In this document: positions 7,796-19,087 of the stretch, in pieces
How the letters are laid out: each line of letters begins with the position of its first letter
Position numbering within the stretch: position 1 is the first letter of the stretch
NCBI RefSeq assembly: GCF_024506395.1
Contig: NZ_JANIBO010000005.1
Span: 1-64,000 of the forward strand
Reading direction: 5' to 3'
Source of the DNA: Cetobacterium sp. NK01
GTDB taxonomy: Bacteria > Fusobacteriota > Fusobacteriia > Fusobacteriales > Fusobacteriaceae
DNA: 64,000 nucleotides
Program-made: the position numbers and the translations under genes
Notes under the pieces: model-generated
The model's input: the letters and a program-made list of their open reading frames with translations, nothing else
Told to the model about the DNA's origin: nothing
Databases searched by the model: none

Positions 7796-7824
7796 TTGAC
7801 ATAAAAATTTTCATATGTTAGTAT
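7796..7824 (+). promoter_or_regulatory. Promoter of the methionine leader/metNIQ operon
   Basis: An exact -35 TTGACA at 7796-7801 is followed after 17 bp by TAGTAT (7819-7824); TATACT at 7822 is a second choice. It lies about 30 bases before the leader ORF. Confidence 0.6.
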
Positions 7825-7855
7825 ACTTAAAAATAAATTTATAGGAGTGGTTGAG

Positions 7856-7933
7856 ATGACGACATACAATTTAATATCAAAAACTACAATGATGAATATG
7901 ATGATGCCTATGGGAGTTGGAACCAAAAATTAA
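7856..7933 (+). CDS. Methionine-rich leader peptide of metNIQ
   Basis: A 25-codon ORF with its own ribosome binding site (AGGAG at 7843-7847, 8 bases before ATG). Six of eight consecutive codons, residues 12-19, are Met or flank Met (MMNMMMPM), so it carries seven Met codons in 25. Its TAA lies inside the first arm of a series of alternative hairpins that end in a terminator ahead of metN. This is the classic design of a translation-coupled attenuator leader, here reading methionyl-tRNA supply. It is too short to be found by length alone; the call rests on codon content, ribosome binding site and position. Confidence 0.75.
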   Translation: MTTYNLISKTTMMNMMMPMGVGTKN

Positions 7934-8039
7934 TTTTTAATTTTGGGACGAACTCATTTTTGCTTTACTAAATGAGAAGCTCCCAAGGAATAAAGTTGTT
8001 AACATAAAGCTTGGGATTTTAAATCTCAAGCTTTTTTTT
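7923..8039 (+). promoter_or_regulatory. Ribosome-mediated attenuator upstream of metN
   Basis: Five segments can pair in two exclusive ways. A (7923-7933, end of the leader ORF) pairs with B (7937-7946). B (TTGGGA, 7943-7948) also pairs with C (TCCCAA, 7981-7986), supported by an inner stem CTCATTT/AAATGAG (7953-7959 with 7970-7976). C (TCCCAAG, 7981-7987) pairs with D (CTTGGGA, 8010-8016). D pairs with E in an 11-bp terminator (8007-8017 with 8023-8033) followed by eight T. A ribosome held at the Met codons leaves A free, so A:B then C:D form and the terminator is prevented. A ribosome at the stop codon masks A, so B:C and D:E form and transcription ends. Confidence 0.75.
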
Positions 8040-8081
8040 ATTAAATTTTCAAAATTCATAATATATTACAAGGAGGAACAG

Positions 8082-9116
8082 ATGATACAACTAAAGAATA
8101 TTATTAAAACTTATGAAAATAAAGGTCAAAGTATTGAAGCTTTAAAAGAGTTATCTTTTGATTTTAAGAAAGGAGAGATAACTGGAATAATAGGATATTC
8201 AGGAGCTGGAAAAAGTACTTTACTTAGATGTATAAATCTTTTAGAAACACCAAGCTCGGGAGAAATTATAATAGATGGAGTTATTTTAAATAAATTAGAA
8301 TCTAAAGATTTAAGAGAAACTAGAAAAAAAATAGGAATGATATTTCAACATTTTAATCTTATGAGAAGTAGAAATGTTTTTAAAAATATAGCATACCCTC
8401 TTAAAGGTAGTGGCCTTTCTAAAAAAGAGATAGAAGAAAGAGTTGATGAACTTTTAGATTTAGTTGGATTAAAAGATAAAAAATACAGTTATCCATCTCA
8501 ACTTAGTGGAGGACAAAAACAAAGAGTAGGAATAGCGAGAGCTTTAGCAAATAGACCAAATTTGATTTTATGTGATGAAGCTACATCAGCGTTAGATCCC
8601 GAAACAACAGTTTCTATTCTAAAATTACTAAAAAAAATCAATAGAGAATTAGGGGTAACAATAGTTCTTATCACTCATCAAATGGAAGTTATAAAAGAAA
8701 TTTGTGATAGTGTTATTGTCATGGAAGAGGGTATTATCAAAGAAGCAGGAGATGTAATCAATATTTTTTCAAGACCTAAAGAGTCAATAACAAAGAGATT
8801 TTTATCATCTATTTTTAATACGGAGAAAATAAATAGTTACTTAGAAAATATGGCAGTTAAACAAAATGAAAAAATAATAAAACTATCTTATGTTGGAAAT
8901 AATACAGAGGAAGCTTATATTTCAAGAGTTTCTAGGGAGTACAACATTGATGCTAGTATTTTATTTGGAAATATAGAGATTATAAAAGAGACTCCAATTG
9001 GAAACTTAGTTATAAAACTAGGAGGAGATGAAAAAAATATTATAGATTCAATAGAGTATTTAAATAAAAATCAAATATATGTGGAGGTTTTAAAAAATGG
9101 AAGAAAAATTATATAG
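8082..9116 (+). CDS. metN: Methionine ABC transporter ATPase MetN
   Basis: A 344-residue ABC ATPase with Walker A at G38-T46 (GYSGAGKST), signature LSGGQKQR, Walker B LILCDEATSALD and the switch His in ITHQ. After about residue 255 it carries a C-terminal NIL regulatory domain (VGNNTEEAYISRVSREYNIDASILFGNIE), the feature that separates MetN from other importers and that binds methionine for feedback inhibition. It powers uptake of methionine through MetI from MetQ. The gene overlaps metI by 20 bp and lies behind the methionine leader attenuator. Confidence 0.93.
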   Translation: MIQLKNIIKTYENKGQSIEALKELSFDFKKGEITGIIGYSGAGKSTLLRCINLLETPSSGEIIIDGVILNKLESKDLRETRKKIGMIFQHFNLMRSRNVFKNIAYPLKGSGLSKKEIEERVDELLDLVGLKDKKYSYPSQLSGGQKQRVGIARALANRPNLILCDEATSALDPETTVSILKLLKKINRELGVTIVLITHQMEVIKEICDSVIVMEEGIIKEAGDVINIFSRPKESITKRFLSSIFNTEKINSYLENMAVKQNEKIIKLSYVGNNTEEAYISRVSREYNIDASILFGNIEIIKETPIGNLVIKLGGDEKNIIDSIEYLNKNQIYVEVLKNGRKII

Positions 9117-9777
9117 TTATTTAGGAAATGTAATAAAGTATCAAGACGAAATGGTTCGTGCCATGGGAGAAACACTAACAATGGTTGCTATAGCAGGAAC
9201 TGTTTCAACATTAATTGGAACAATTATGGGAATAGTTTTAGTTATAACTAGAAAAGGTGGAATTTTGGAAAATAGTTTAATTAATAATATTTTAGGAAAA
9301 TTTATAAATATTTTTAGATCAATTCCATTTGTAATTCTACTGGCAGCTTTAATTCCTGTAACAAGGTTTTTTATGGGAACAACTATTGGTTTAAAAGGAG
9401 CAATTGTTCCTCTTATATTTGGGTCAGCTCCATTTGTTGCAAGACAAATAGAATCGGCATTATTAAGTGTTGATTCAGGAGTAATAGAAGCAGCCTACGC
9501 AATGGGATCTTCTCCGTTTGAAATAATTTATAGAGTATTATTGAGAGAAGCATTACCAGAGATTATTTATGCTCTTATTATAACTACAGTTAGTTTAATT
9601 GGATTTTCAGCTGTAGCAGGAACAGTTGGTGGTGGCGGTCTTGGTGACTTTGCTATTAGATATGGATATCAACATTTTAAAACAGATATCATGGTAGTAA
9701 CAATTATAATTTTGGTAAGCTTGATAACTTTTATACAATGGTCGGGAGAAAAAATATTAAAAAAAATAAAACGTTAG
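9097..9777 (+). CDS. metI: Methionine ABC transporter permease MetI
   Basis: A 226-residue inner-membrane permease with about five membrane segments and the EAA-loop characteristic of MetI (ARQIESALLSVDSGVIEAAYAMGSSPFEIIYRVLLREALPEI, the coupling helix that contacts MetN). The glycine-rich stretch GTVGGGGLGDFAIRYGYQ is also a MetI hallmark. Start ATG overlaps the metN 3' end. Confidence 0.93.
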   Translation: MEEKLYSYLGNVIKYQDEMVRAMGETLTMVAIAGTVSTLIGTIMGIVLVITRKGGILENSLINNILGKFINIFRSIPFVILLAALIPVTRFFMGTTIGLKGAIVPLIFGSAPFVARQIESALLSVDSGVIEAAYAMGSSPFEIIYRVLLREALPEIIYALIITTVSLIGFSAVAGTVGGGGLGDFAIRYGYQHFKTDIMVVTIIILVSLITFIQWSGEKILKKIKR

Positions 9778-9811: not shown

Positions 9812-10642
9812 ATGAAAATATTAAAGATTTTAAAGGTAGTTATATTTTTGGTGTTATCAACAGTAGGATTTTTAGGATGTGGGAACTCATCAGATGATTC
9901 CTCAACAACAGAGAAAAAAGTAGTAAAACTAGGAATTAATGGAGATGAAAATGTAATCTGGGAAAATGTAAGAGACCAACTTGCAAAAGAGAATATAGAA
10001 CTAAAGTTTATAAATTTTGCAGACTATATAAGACCAAATTTGGCTCTTCAAGATAAGGAAATAGATATAAATGCATTTCAAACAGAGATATATTTTGACA
10101 ATTTTAAAAAGGAACATAAGTTATCAATAGTTAATTTAGGATATACAGTATTAGCTCCAATGGGGATTTATTCTAAAAAATTAACGGATTTATCTCAGTT
10201 AAAAGATGGAGCAGTAGTAGCTATTCCAAATGACAGCTCAAATGGTGGAAGAGCACTACTTTTACTTCAGGATGCAGGGCTTATAAGTGTAAATAAAGAT
10301 GCAGGAGCTTTTCCAAGAGTTAAAGACATTATAGAAAATCCAAAGAATATAAAAATAGTTGAGTTAGTAGCAACTCAAATTCCAAGATCAATAGAAGATG
10401 TAGATGTTGCGGCTATAAATAATGGTGTTGCTGTTCAAGCTGGATATTCACCATTGGTAGATTCAATCTTTATTGAAGATTTTAAAAATGAGAGATTAAA
10501 GCCATATTTTAATATAATAGCTTCAAGAGATGATAATCAAAATAAACCAGAGATAAAAAGAGTTTTAGAAGTTTATCAAACTGCTGAAAATAAAAAAATA
10601 ATAGATGATTATTATAAAGGGTCTTCAATAGCTGTATTTTAG
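9812..10642 (+). CDS. metQ: Methionine-binding lipoprotein MetQ
   Basis: A 276-residue NlpA/MetQ-family substrate-binding lipoprotein with signal peptide and lipobox ending FLGC. Conserved NlpA-type segments are KVVKLGINGDENVIWENV, PNLALQDKEIDINAFQTEIYFDNF, and VAIPNDSSNGGRALLLLQDAGLI. It captures methionine (possibly D-methionine or methionine sulfoxide as well) at the membrane and delivers it to MetNI. It is 34 bp downstream of metI with a GGGAGG ribosome binding site. Confidence 0.92.
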   Translation: MKILKILKVVIFLVLSTVGFLGCGNSSDDSSTTEKKVVKLGINGDENVIWENVRDQLAKENIELKFINFADYIRPNLALQDKEIDINAFQTEIYFDNFKKEHKLSIVNLGYTVLAPMGIYSKKLTDLSQLKDGAVVAIPNDSSNGGRALLLLQDAGLISVNKDAGAFPRVKDIIENPKNIKIVELVATQIPRSIEDVDVAAINNGVAVQAGYSPLVDSIFIEDFKNERLKPYFNIIASRDDNQNKPEIKRVLEVYQTAENKKIIDDYYKGSSIAVF

Positions 10643-10685: not shown

Positions 10686-11855
10686 ATGGAAAAGAAAATA
10701 ATAGATTTTTTAGATAGTAATAGAGATATTTTTATAGATCTTAGTCAAAAAATACACCAAAATCCTGAGATTGGAAACGAAGAGTATTTTGCAGCGGATT
10801 TATTAACAAAGTTTTTAGAAGAAAAAGGATTTGATGTTGAAAGAAATATAGCAGGACATGAGACGGGGTTTATAGCTAGAAAGCAATCTAAAAATGGAGA
10901 GTATCCTAAAATAGCTTTTTTAGCTGAATATGATGCACTTCCAAATCTAGGTCATGCTTGTGGTCATAATATAATAGGAGCAATAAGTGTTGCTGGAGCA
11001 GTTGGCTTAGGTGAGTTATTAGATAATGTTTCGGGTGAAGTTATCGTTTACGGTTGTCCTTCAGAAGAGGGAGGAGAGAATGGAAGTTCTAAGGGTTCTT
11101 TTGTTCGTGAAAATCTTTTTGAAGGGGTGGATGTTGCAATGATAATACATCCAGGAAGCGAGCATTCAATAACAAAGAAGAGTTTAGCAGTAAATCCTTT
11201 GGATTTTGAATTCTTTGGGCAATCATCTCATGCTGCAGGTTCTCCTGAAAATGGTAAAAATGCTTTAGATGCATTACTACATTTTTTCAACGGAATTGCA
11301 ACACTTAGACAACATGTTAAATCAGATGTAAAAATTCACGGAATAATAACTCATGGAGGGGATGCACCAAATATAATTCCAGATTACACTAAGGCTAGAT
11401 TTTATATTAGATCTTCGACAAAAGAGGGTTGTGATGAAGTTACAGAAAAAGTAGAAGCTATAGCTCATGGTGCAGCACTTATGACAGGATGTACTGTAAA
11501 AATTTCTAGTTTTCAAAATAGAGTTGATAATCTTATACCAACGAGATATTTTGATGAACTTTATGTAGAAACTATGAAAAAATTAGGAGTAGAGGTTTCT
11601 ACAGATTCAAAAAAGGGGATGGGATCAACTGATGTGGGGAACGTGAGTCACATAATACCAACAATTCATCCAAATATAAAAATTTGTGATTGTAATGTTT
11701 TTGGTCATACCCATGAATTTGCAAAAGCAGCTGGGTCTATTAAAGGAGATGAAGCTGTTATATTAGGAGGAAAAGCTTTAGCTTTATTAGGGTTAGATTT
11801 AATTTTAAATAAAGAAAAATTAGAGAATATAAAAGAAAATTTTTTATCAAGATAA
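10686..11855 (+). CDS. M20 family amidohydrolase (M20D, AbgB-like)
   Basis: A 389-residue zinc peptidase/amidohydrolase of the M20D type: metal ligands appear in LGHACGHNIIG, PSEEGGENGSS and the C-terminal GHTHEF, with the lid-domain segment SSHAAGSPENGKNALDALL. The closest subgroup is AbgB/aminobenzoyl-glutamate or N-acyl-amino-acid hydrolases. It is the last gene of the metNIQ operon (43 bp after metQ, GGAGGG ribosome binding site), so an N-acyl-methionine, methionyl conjugate or peptide is an attractive substrate, though that is inference from position. Confidence 0.8.
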   Translation: MEKKIIDFLDSNRDIFIDLSQKIHQNPEIGNEEYFAADLLTKFLEEKGFDVERNIAGHETGFIARKQSKNGEYPKIAFLAEYDALPNLGHACGHNIIGAISVAGAVGLGELLDNVSGEVIVYGCPSEEGGENGSSKGSFVRENLFEGVDVAMIIHPGSEHSITKKSLAVNPLDFEFFGQSSHAAGSPENGKNALDALLHFFNGIATLRQHVKSDVKIHGIITHGGDAPNIIPDYTKARFYIRSSTKEGCDEVTEKVEAIAHGAALMTGCTVKISSFQNRVDNLIPTRYFDELYVETMKKLGVEVSTDSKKGMGSTDVGNVSHIIPTIHPNIKICDCNVFGHTHEFAKAAGSIKGDEAVILGGKALALLGLDLILNKEKLENIKENFLSR

Positions 11856-14371: not shown

Positions 14372-14468
14372 AAAAAACCAGATACACTAAAAATTAGTGC
14401 AACTGGCTGTCATTTTAAAGACCCTATAGCTTTGCGTCATAAAGTTTCCCTTATTTTGCCTCAGTTAT
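14372..14468 (-). promoter_or_regulatory. Cyclic di-GMP-I (GEMM) riboswitch
   Basis: On the minus strand, GAGGCAAAATAAG, a GAAA tetraloop stem, then the hallmark GACGCAAAGC at 14438-14429 followed by TATAGGGTC, a variable loop and ACAGCCAGTTGC match the GEMM-I consensus. The 3' strand of the aptamer (CCAGTTGCACTAA, about 14404-14392) is also the 5' arm of a 13-bp hairpin ending in TAGTG..CTGG and TTTTTTT (to 14372). Ligand binding would hold that strand in the aptamer and prevent the terminator, so an ON switch is predicted. Confidence 0.9.
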
Positions 14469-14483
14469 TTATTTTATATAAAA

Positions 14484-14928: not shown

Positions 14929-14957
14929 TTGAAAAAAAAACATGTTAGTGATAATAT
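14929..14957 (+). promoter_or_regulatory. Promoter of cobalamin riboswitch RNA
   Basis: TTGAAA at 14929-14934 and TAATAT at 14952-14957 are separated by 17 bp, just before the riboswitch. Confidence 0.65.
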
Positions 14958-14962
14958 ACCCC

Positions 14963-15176
14963 TGTAATGGTTCTAAAGATTAAAAGGGAATTAAGTGAAA
15001 AGCTTAAACGGTCCCGCCACTGTAAAGAGGATGAAAGTATTAAAACCACTAAATTTTAAATTTGGGAAGGGATGCGAGTAGGATGAATCTAAGTCAGGAG
15101 ACCTGCCATTATGAAAAATCTGCGAGGACGGAGAAGGGGAAACTCTTCTTCCAAATTTAAATTATATTTGGGAGGG
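14963..15176 (+). promoter_or_regulatory. Cobalamin riboswitch
   Basis: Conserved cobalamin aptamer elements occur in order: AATGGTTCT, AAAAGGGAATTAAGTG, CGGTCCCGCCACTGTAAAG, GGGATGCGAGTAGGATGA, and the B12 box AAGTCAGGAGACCTGCC (to about 15109). Downstream, CCAAAT (15151-15156) can pair with ATTTGG (15166-15171), which overlaps the ribosome binding site GGAGGG (15171-15176), so translational control of the chelatase gene is likely. Expected result is repression by cobalamin. Confidence 0.93.
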
Positions 15177-17189: not shown

Positions 17190-18413
17190 TTATTCAGCTC
17201 TTAGGGCATCGATTGGATTGAGCTGTGAAGCTTTTTTTGCAGGAGTAACACCAAATATAACACCAATAAAAGTAGAAACACCTAAAGCTAAAGATATTGA
17301 AAAAATCGAAAAAACAGGAGGGATATTTACGAAATAACCAATGATTAGAGCTAAGGTAACACCAATTAATACTCCTACAACTCCTCCGATTCCTGTTAAA
17401 ATAACTGATTCCATTAGAAATTGTATAAGAATATCTTTGTTAGTAGCTCCGATAGCTTTACGAATACCAATCTCTTTAGTCCTTTCAATAACACTAACAA
17501 GCATTATATTCATAACTCCAATTCCACCAACAAATAGTGATATACCAGCAACAAAAGTAATAAAAAGATTAAGAGTACTTAAAATATTATCAAAAGATGC
17601 GGCAGCGTTACTCATAGTTTCCACTTGATAAAGTCCTTTAACTCCAGTTATATCTTCTAAAATTGTATTAGCATTTTTCATATCAGCAGCGAGATTTTCA
17701 GGATTTTTAGATTCAACAATAATAGAGTTATATCCACCCTTTGAGAGATTATAAACTTTATCATAGGTATTTAAAGGAGTTCTCATAAATCTAGGAATTC
17801 TTCTTCCGCCCATAACTTTAATAAGTTCTTCAAGTGGATTTTTAAAAACACCCACTATCTTATAGGTGATAGGACTATTTTTTCTTCCAACTGCAAAAGA
17901 CATCTTGTTTCCAATAGCTTTATCAGCACTTCCAAAGAGATCTTTAGCTGTTAAGTTATCAATAACTAAAATCTTTTCACCCTTTTCATATTCGAAAGGT
18001 AAAAATTCTCTACCAAAAATATACTCCGTTTTATCAATTTTTTCGTAGTCAGATGTAGTAGCAACAAGTTGAACAATCTCTCTTCTTTTTCCGAGTTCTA
18101 AAAATACACGAGTGCTTATATTAGCACTAACATTTTTGAAAATATTTGTTTCTTTTAAAGAGTCAACAATTTCAGGTTCTAAAAGATATTTCCATCTGAA
18201 TTCCTCATCATCTTTATCAATAGATATAGTAAACTTTCCATATCCGCCTTCCTTTAAATCTCCAGTTATATTCTGTTGTCCACCCTTTCCTATGGCAGAC
18301 ATTGTTATAACAGATGAGATACCAATAATAATACCTAGCATTGTTAAAAATGATCTAACCTTGTTTCCTTTCAAGTTTTGGATGGCTCCTTTTAAGCTTT
18401 CTAAAAAATTCAT
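17190..18413 (-). CDS. MacB-type ABC transporter permease
   Basis: A 407-residue FtsX/MacB permease: one N-terminal membrane helix (about 20-40), a large periplasmic MacB-PCD domain (about 45-275) and three C-terminal helices, with the family segment GGIGVMNIMLVSVIERTKEIGIRKAIGA. It couples ATP hydrolysis by the neighbouring ATPase to transport or mechanotransmission across the envelope. Its start overlaps the ATPase stop by 4 bp. It is the last gene of the two-component/tripartite operon. The pump substrate is unknown; peptides, toxins or drugs are typical. Confidence 0.88.
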   Translation of the reverse strand: MNFLESLKGAIQNLKGNKVRSFLTMLGIIIGISSVITMSAIGKGGQQNITGDLKEGGYGKFTISIDKDDEEFRWKYLLEPEIVDSLKETNIFKNVSANISTRVFLELGKRREIVQLVATTSDYEKIDKTEYIFGREFLPFEYEKGEKILVIDNLTAKDLFGSADKAIGNKMSFAVGRKNSPITYKIVGVFKNPLEELIKVMGGRRIPRFMRTPLNTYDKVYNLSKGGYNSIIVESKNPENLAADMKNANTILEDITGVKGLYQVETMSNAAASFDNILSTLNLFITFVAGISLFVGGIGVMNIMLVSVIERTKEIGIRKAIGATNKDILIQFLMESVILTGIGGVVGVLIGVTLALIIGYFVNIPPVFSIFSISLALGVSTFIGVIFGVTPAKKASQLNPIDALRAE

Positions 18414-19087
18414 GAATTTCTCACATCCTCTATTATTTCTCCATCTTTAAATCGAATAATTCTTTTGCAAGACTTACCAACTTCAGGTTCGTGAGTTACT
18501 ATAACAATTGTTTTTCCTTGGTTATTTAATTCTTTAAAAAGTTCCATGATCTCTTTTTCAGAAGCACTATCAAGATTCCCTGTAGGTTCATCAGCTAAAA
18601 TTATAGCAGGTTCATTGACAAGAGCTCTAGCTATGGCAACTCTTTGTCTTTGGCCTCCTGAAAGTTCGTTTGGTTTATGCTCTAATCTATCTCCAAGTCC
18701 AACTTTTTCTAGAACTTTTTTAGCTTTATATGCTCTTTCTTTATGATGAACACCTGCATAAACTAAAGGGAGTTCTACATTTTCTAAAGCCGATAGTTTT
18801 GATAATAGATTAAAAGATTGAAAAACAAATCCTATTTTTAGATTCCTTATTCTAGATAATTCTTCATCTTTAAGTTTTGAAATATCAATTTTATCAAGAA
18901 TATAAGTTCCAGCAAAGGTATGATCTAAACATCCTAAAATATTCATCATAGTTGATTTACCACTTCCACTACTTCCCATAATTGCTACAAACTCACCTTT
19001 TTCTATAGAAAAATTAATATTTTTTAAAGCATGAAGTTTCATTTCTCCATTTATATAATATTTATTTAAATCTTTAATTTCTATCAT
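18410..19087 (-). CDS. MacB/LolD-type ABC transporter ATPase
   Basis: A 225-residue ATPase with Walker A GSSGSGKST, signature LSGGQRQRVAIARAL, Walker B IILADEPTGNLD and H-loop VTHEP, the pattern of the LolD/MacB/FtsE subfamily. In canonical MacB this domain is fused to the permease; here it is a separate gene overlapping both neighbours by 4 bp. Confidence 0.92.
   Translation of the reverse strand: MIEIKDLNKYYINGEMKLHALKNINFSIEKGEFVAIMGSSGSGKSTMMNILGCLDHTFAGTYILDKIDISKLKDEELSRIRNLKIGFVFQSFNLLSKLSALENVELPLVYAGVHHKERAYKAKKVLEKVGLGDRLEHKPNELSGGQRQRVAIARALVNEPAIILADEPTGNLDSASEKEIMELFKELNNQGKTIVIVTHEPEVGKSCKRIIRFKDGEIIEDVRNS

Follow-up and report, generated by a model that had tools for sequence, protein, structure and literature searches.

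The trp, his, thr, ilv, leu and phe leaders of Escherichia coli are ribosome-mediated attenuators. To our knowledge, methionine is absent from the classical list of amino acids sensed by leader peptides, a plausible reason being its second role as the initiator of all proteins. In attenuators of the trp/his type, a translated leader open reading frame (ORF) with a run of cognate codons, a set of alternative hairpins and an intrinsic terminator are located upstream of genes for the sensed amino acid. The same parts were found upstream of metNIQ in Cetobacterium, a fish-gut bacterium. In this case, however, methionine would be the amino acid sensed, the sequence is unrelated to that of the known leaders, and the stop codon of the leader ORF is placed in the first of five arms, so that the finished peptide would mask arm A and not arm 2.

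A putative Met leader preceding metNIQ has been predicted in Streptomyces lividans (metL; PMC8079986). It likewise comprises a short ORF (MSTTSDRTPATEATTTPGARCMCRRMCAF) with several Met (and Cys) codons, but this ORF is predicted to be leaderless, lacks an intrinsic terminator and represents a single site, whereas the Cetobacterium leader has a Shine-Dalgarno (SD) sequence, a terminator and alternative arms, and is part of a multi-operon regulon. No conserved RNA regulatory structure was found upstream of methionine operons in a survey of Actinobacteria (PMC1262725). The hisS/hisZ leaders of Bacillota (PMC2965389) are also leader peptides from outside Proteobacteria and Actinobacteria that target their own aminoacyl-tRNA synthetase; they respond to histidine rather than methionine and belong to another phylum. 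The passages and counts searched in that survey and in PMC8632094, the latter including a Fusobacteria genome, contain no Met leader, and no further one was found in searches of an open-access library. Rfam contains no family matching the leader. The SAM-I (S-box) riboswitch RF00162, by which paralogs and orthologs of metN are likewise regulated in the same family, binds SAM and is absent from the leader site.

The type of mechanism is already known from trp/his, and one predicted Met leader, S. lividans metL, is prior art. The sequence-only reading of this DNA had described a Met leader as unusual, which holds for the sensed residue, although such a leader upstream of metNIQ had been predicted once (PMC8079986). 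As far as could be checked, Met specificity at the scale of a regulon and a methionyl-tRNA synthetase target are new.

Anatomy of the leader upstream of metNIQ

The window, i.e., the whole stretch of 64,000 nucleotides of Cetobacterium sp. NK01 DNA that was analyzed, has no RefSeq annotation between a sugar O-acetyltransferase gene and metN. Its region 7300-10700 matches plasmid p4 of C. somerae over the full length (98.2%), which assigns the window to C. somerae plasmid DNA. A consensus scan identified a sigma-70-type promoter (TTGACA-17-TAGTAT; 7796-7824, + strand, as for all leader features given below) matching at 10 of 12 positions, and comparison among relatives showed that the promoter sequence is also kept upstream of their leaders. 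The SD sequence AGGAG (7843-7847), identical in all 17 Cetobacterium leaders, is located 8 nt 5' of the ATG of a 25-codon ORF (7856-7933) encoding MTTYNLISKTTMMNMMMPMGVGTKN, which was identified from its sequence, its translation and its conservation in relatives. Met occupies codons 12, 13, 15, 16, 17 and 19, that is, six of the eight positions of the run MMNMMMPM (codons 12-19; 7889-7912); at a Met frequency of 3%, an ORF of this kind would contain six or more Met in any eight-residue window with a chance probability of about 3e-7.

The 5' part of the ORF is enclosed by helix P0 (7847-7887), in which the SD-adjacent GUGGUU (7847-7852) is joined to AACUAC (7882-7887) of the KTT codons, with the start codon and the variable codons between them. 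P0 is paired in 17/17 sequences, in which a single G-U to A-U change preserves the pairing. The Met run is followed by five arms. Arm A (7912-7933) consists of GGGAGUU (7912-7918), which can also pair with arm C, and CCAAAAAUUAA (7923-7933); the stop codon of the leader ORF (7931-7933) is placed within this second segment (CCAAAAATTAA, 7923-7933). Arm B (UUUUGGGACGAACUCAUUU, 7941-7959) can form six pairs plus an inner stem with A, or 14 pairs with C, and arm C (AAAUGAGAAGCUCCCAAGG, 7970-7988) can pair with A, B or D. Arm D (8007-8019) is the 5' half of a terminator, and its segment AGCUUGGGA also pairs with C, giving an antiterminator. Arm E and the adjacent T run (8021-8039; arm E, 8021-8033) complete the intrinsic terminator with D. 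The pairings possible in the window are thus A:B, A:C, B:C, C:D and D:E.

The intrinsic terminator (8006-8034, a 13-pair stem and then a T run), which precedes metN, the first structural gene, is the sole terminator-like site of the region, compared to 0.1 expected in shuffled sequences. The fold of the leader is likewise better than that of its shuffled versions (z = -2.2). The 25-codon ORF with its own ribosome binding site and six clustered Met codons, its end within the first of five mutually exclusive arms, and the strong terminator formed by the last arms, all described in the sequence-only reading, were confirmed by this analysis. Conservation of the SD, start codon and frame marks the ORF as a probable translation unit with its own ribosome binding site, and its Met-codon run is located ahead of methionine genes (metNIQ, and in homologs metY, hom, metG and others).

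The leader is followed by genes for a methionine ABC transporter ATPase (metN, 8082-9116, +), a permease (metI, 9097-9777, +) and a substrate-binding lipoprotein (metQ, 9812-10642, +). MetN, MetI and MetQ are the best NCBIfam models for these genes, all with scores under the curated cut-offs (ABC_MetN, 383 bits, equivalog cut-off 499.7; MetI, 207 bits, cut-off 212; MetQ, 206 bits). RefSeq names metI and metQ, the neighbors of metN, as methionine transporter parts, with metQ given as MetQ/NlpA. An M20-family metallopeptidase gene (10686-11855, +) is located closely 3' of metQ and may share the metNIQ transcription unit. Elsewhere in the window, Rfam identifies cobalamin (14951-15124, +), c-di-GMP-I (14395-14470, -) and purine (1905-2002, -) riboswitches, and an ABC transporter ATPase reading frame (18398-19087, -; locus L006) with two internal stops possibly represents a decayed gene.

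Conservation of the leader in Cetobacterium

The sequence-only reading had proposed conservation across Fusobacteriota as support for the leader, and a Met run lost in relatives as a reason to discard it; the comparison gave the opposite of such a loss. The metN leader, with its ORF, Met run and arms, was found in 10 of 12 members of the genus, in one of them at a contig end, and both paralogs and homologs in other genera were identified. The two remaining genomes had no metN match, and all the Cetobacterium metN orthologs (82-99% protein identity) are preceded by the leader. A search with the leader DNA detected sister copies of 82-85% identity within the genus. These are located ahead of (i) an operon of metY (O-acetylhomoserine sulfhydrylase), metF (methylenetetrahydrofolate reductase) and a gene for a MetA-like homoserine acyltransferase, (ii) an aspartokinase gene (lysC), and (iii) a gene for an oligopeptide-type (Opp/Dpp-like) binding protein. 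In one genome (G006), the metY product (locus L150) lacks ∼60 internal residues in frame compared to its relatives, due to either a deletion or an assembly error.

The codons between the SD sequence and KTT are variable, and the indels that distinguish the ORFs of relatives all have lengths divisible by three, which, judged by sequence comparison, is a coding signature. The peptide segment KTTMMNMMPLGV(G/C/D)TKN is present in all Cetobacterium sister leaders, and the 16-residue core KTTMMNMMP(L/M)GVGTKN is nearly invariant in the 17 leaders of the genus, with MMNMMMPM shortened to MMNMMPM in G006, G007 and G010. Part of this codon invariance is explained by helix P0, which pairs the KTT codons with the SD-adjacent GUGGUU. 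The Asn codon within the Met run (AAT, 7895-7897) is invariant in 17/17 leaders and is used by no proposed helix.

A scan of Fusobacteriota loci showed that small ORFs with an SD sequence and at least four Met in eight positions are, without exception, located upstream of a methionine-related gene; it should be noted that these loci overlap, and some Met-rich elements were counted repeatedly.

Homologs in other Fusobacteriota

A covariance model built from the 17 Cetobacterium leaders detected ten homologs in a second Fusobacteriaceae genus (g14; E about 1e-7 to 1e-6), preceding metN, metY, hom followed by metY, and metG (methionyl-tRNA synthetase); the metG gene behind the leader is intact in G054 and frameshifted in the G059 assembly. 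Two further homologs (E about 1e-5, in the fetched loci searched) precede metY in a genus of Leptotrichiaceae (g25). Weak matches to the model at G010:C35, G006:C30, G042 and G053 (E 0.002-0.007) have no leader ORF with a Met run and were attributed to chance. The encoded peptides are KTTMMNMMPLGVGTKN in Cetobacterium, RQLNMMMMLWKGL or GQLNMLMMMLW in g14 and NDNMMMYMRYRV in g25; the Met run is all that they have in common, and the stop positions differ as well. A homologous RNA chassis with differing peptides and a kept Met run argues for the reading of codons, i.e., of tRNA charging, and not for a specific arrest peptide.

Arrest of the ribosome by the nascent chain was considered in this context. 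The core KTTMMNMMP(L/M)GVGTKN would then itself stall the ribosome in response to a small molecule such as methionine or SAM, in the way that TnaC responds to tryptophan. The near invariance of the core in the 17 Cetobacterium leaders and the Pro codon after the Met run are in favor of this explanation. However, nearly all of the invariant codons sit in RNA helices (P0, A:C and A:B), the g14 and g25 homologs have other peptides and other stop positions, and a metG target is better suited to tRNA charging. Across genera, no conservation of the peptide beyond RNA structure and codon identity was found, with the Asn codon of Cetobacterium left unexplained. We regard a TnaC-like arrest as improbable.

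Even less credible is a small-molecule riboswitch (for SAM, methionine or another ligand) that overlaps a short ORF by chance. The nucleotide sequence of the leader is strongly conserved, and the closest metN orthologs outside the genus (g4, 72-75% identity) carry a SAM-I riboswitch in place of the leader, as does the second metN copy in the window's own genome. Against this, no Rfam family was matched at its gathering score: the SAM riboswitch families gave no match at this score or at E≤1, the T-box family gave none, and the best sub-threshold matches (HrrF, PyrR and a snoRNA, at E<1) scored far under their gathering scores and were rejected. The in-frame indels, the conserved SD sequence and the Met run also speak against a chance overlap, and unrelated Met-run sequences occupy the same genes elsewhere.

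Co-variation of the arms and predicted effect of the ribosome

In the Cetobacterium leaders, pairing is possible in 98% of the cells of the terminator form and in 96% of those of the antiterminator form, most columns being invariant. Two-sided changes between metN-type and metY-type leaders affect two terminator (D:E) pairs and one antiterminator pair, a weak covariation that amounts to about one event. Arm C has three forms in g14, and arms B and D are altered along with each. In these three-way co-changes, the C sequence GUCUGCC is accompanied by GGUAGAC in D, GUUUGCC by GGCAAAC, and GAGUUUGUUC in C by GGGAAACUC in D and GAACAGACUC in B (the arms for this comparison and for the pairings in the window were picked by eye). 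The compensatory changes named in the sequence-only reading as support for the pairing were found in the B/C/D co-change of g14, and are weak in Cetobacterium itself. The segment of D that pairs with C in the antiterminator includes part of the loop of the terminator. This segment follows the sequence changes of C, whereas the stem of the terminator hardly varies. C:D complementarity was present in all the leaders compared, pointing to a mutually exclusive antiterminator, and the A:C pairing (GGGAG:CUCCC) competes with a simple five-arm scheme.

A trans-acting small protein of the kind proposed for peTrpL, with the cis hairpins forming no more than a terminator, is highly unlikely: the peptide core is conserved within the genus and trans-acting leader peptides are known (PMC7298713), but the peptides are wholly different between genera while the arms and the Met run persist, and arms B, C and D co-vary.

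In eight leaders of g14, g25, g23 and g27 (the latter two described below), the first Met codon and arm A are 16-24 nt apart. A ribosome halted at this codon would therefore leave arm A barely uncovered, and a ribosome at the stop codon would cover it. The effect of the ribosome on C:D formation was estimated by folding with the ribosome-covered nucleotides masked; the values are equilibrium estimates, and kinetics may matter, as B:C forms before D exists. With the ribosome stalled, compared to at the stop codon, C:D formation was 0.80 vs. 0.00 for g25 metY, 0.55 vs. 0.02 for g14 hom and 0.72 vs. 0.02 for the g23 locus L233, which is the switch predicted by the scheme. The two states were hardly separated for metN (0.67 vs. 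0.62) and metY (0.67 vs. 0.59) of Cetobacterium; there was no contrast in g14 metN, and it was reversed in L234 (0.41 vs. 0.55). Masked folding with D out predicted that Cetobacterium would read through without translation. Read-through in the absence of translation was rejected as a general rule, since masked folding agrees with it for g25 and opposes it for g23 and g27.

Proposed mechanism of methionine-dependent attenuation

We propose, with a probability of roughly 0.85, that the leader controls transcription by ribosome-mediated attenuation, with charged Met-tRNA as the sensed signal. Its ORF would be translated directly behind RNA polymerase. If charged elongator Met-tRNA is short, the ribosome would stall in the Met run, 5' of the part of arm A that contains the stop codon. 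A:B pairing would then withhold B from C, allowing the C:D antiterminator to form and metNIQ to be transcribed. If Met-tRNA is plentiful, the ribosome would reach the stop codon inside arm A and mask this arm; B:C would pair, D would be free for E, and the terminator would end transcription. The leader thus very probably lets stalled ribosomes turn metNIQ on when methionine is short. We infer that the ORF is translated, that the ribosome stalls on it, in which order the hairpins are chosen and which way the operon is regulated, the direction and size of the effect being judged from anatomy, comparative evidence and gene context.

Attenuation by charged Met-tRNA had already been put forward in the sequence-only reading, and the homologous chassis with other peptides and kept Met runs supports it at the level of sequence comparison. 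The presence of a methionyl-tRNA synthetase gene among the targets favors tRNA charging over SAM as the signal.

Met-rich leaders of unrelated sequence

Very short ORFs (MKKFAKNMMMDM, MQFTTNFMMMYMCLSL, MINKVVTFKMNMMHM and MKNLVVVNVMMMHT), all of them with arms and a terminator downstream, precede metN in g23 and g27 (Leptotrichiaceae), and Met/Cys-rich leaders precede metY and metA in g12. A scan of genome contigs with MetN yielded no Fusobacteriota, but detected a Met-rich leader at one locus of Clostridia (L011). In the Clostridia family around Agathobaculum, Met/Cys-rich leader ORFs followed by terminators were found at the metN loci L011, L288, L289, L290, L291, L292 and L293 (L011 and six relatives; L287 and L294 were left out of this set). 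Their MCMCMP-like runs suggest joint sensing of methionine and cysteine. Judged by their sequences, the g23/g27 and Clostridia leaders are unrelated to that of Cetobacterium.

These observations raise the possibility, which we consider less likely than not, that Met-codon attenuation is widespread, has arisen repeatedly, and takes the place of SAM riboswitches and T-boxes in the control of whole methionine regulons, methionyl-tRNA synthetase among them. A five-arm chain with read-through on a stalled (in some lineages, absent) ribosome might let the initiator amino acid be sensed, and the Met/Cys runs of Clostridia might sense both sulfur amino acids. A regulon-wide system of Met leaders with a synthetase target would show that a stalling ribosome can sense charged Met-tRNA. 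It would also account for the means by which a phylum with SAM-I riboswitches of its own distinguishes a shortage of methionine from a shortage of SAM. The leaders further provide a natural example of orthologous genes at which a riboswitch and a leader peptide have been exchanged, and represent a class of small ORFs missed by automatic annotation.

Several further loci deserve mention. The metN genes inspected in the Leptotrichia-like g21 have neither a SAM-I riboswitch nor a Met run. Upstream of metN in Parasutterella (Burkholderiales; L044, ∼2650-2850), an ORF ending in MRMCMMTMVL overlaps a strong hairpin and is a possible Met leader, with no clear terminator found at this site. At L207 (g24 metN), a leader-like ORF (MKRFREAMCMS) with an SD sequence and a terminator downstream has, apart from its start codon, only two Met, together with a single Cys. 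The g12 leaders of metY and metA are located at L180 and L181, on both strands; the metY leader ORFs extend far past the Met run (40-49 codons), and their hairpin logic may differ. Finally, metN of g25 (L215, L220 and L228) has a long Met-rich leader ORF, and a tRNA gene is located upstream of both on the opposite strand.
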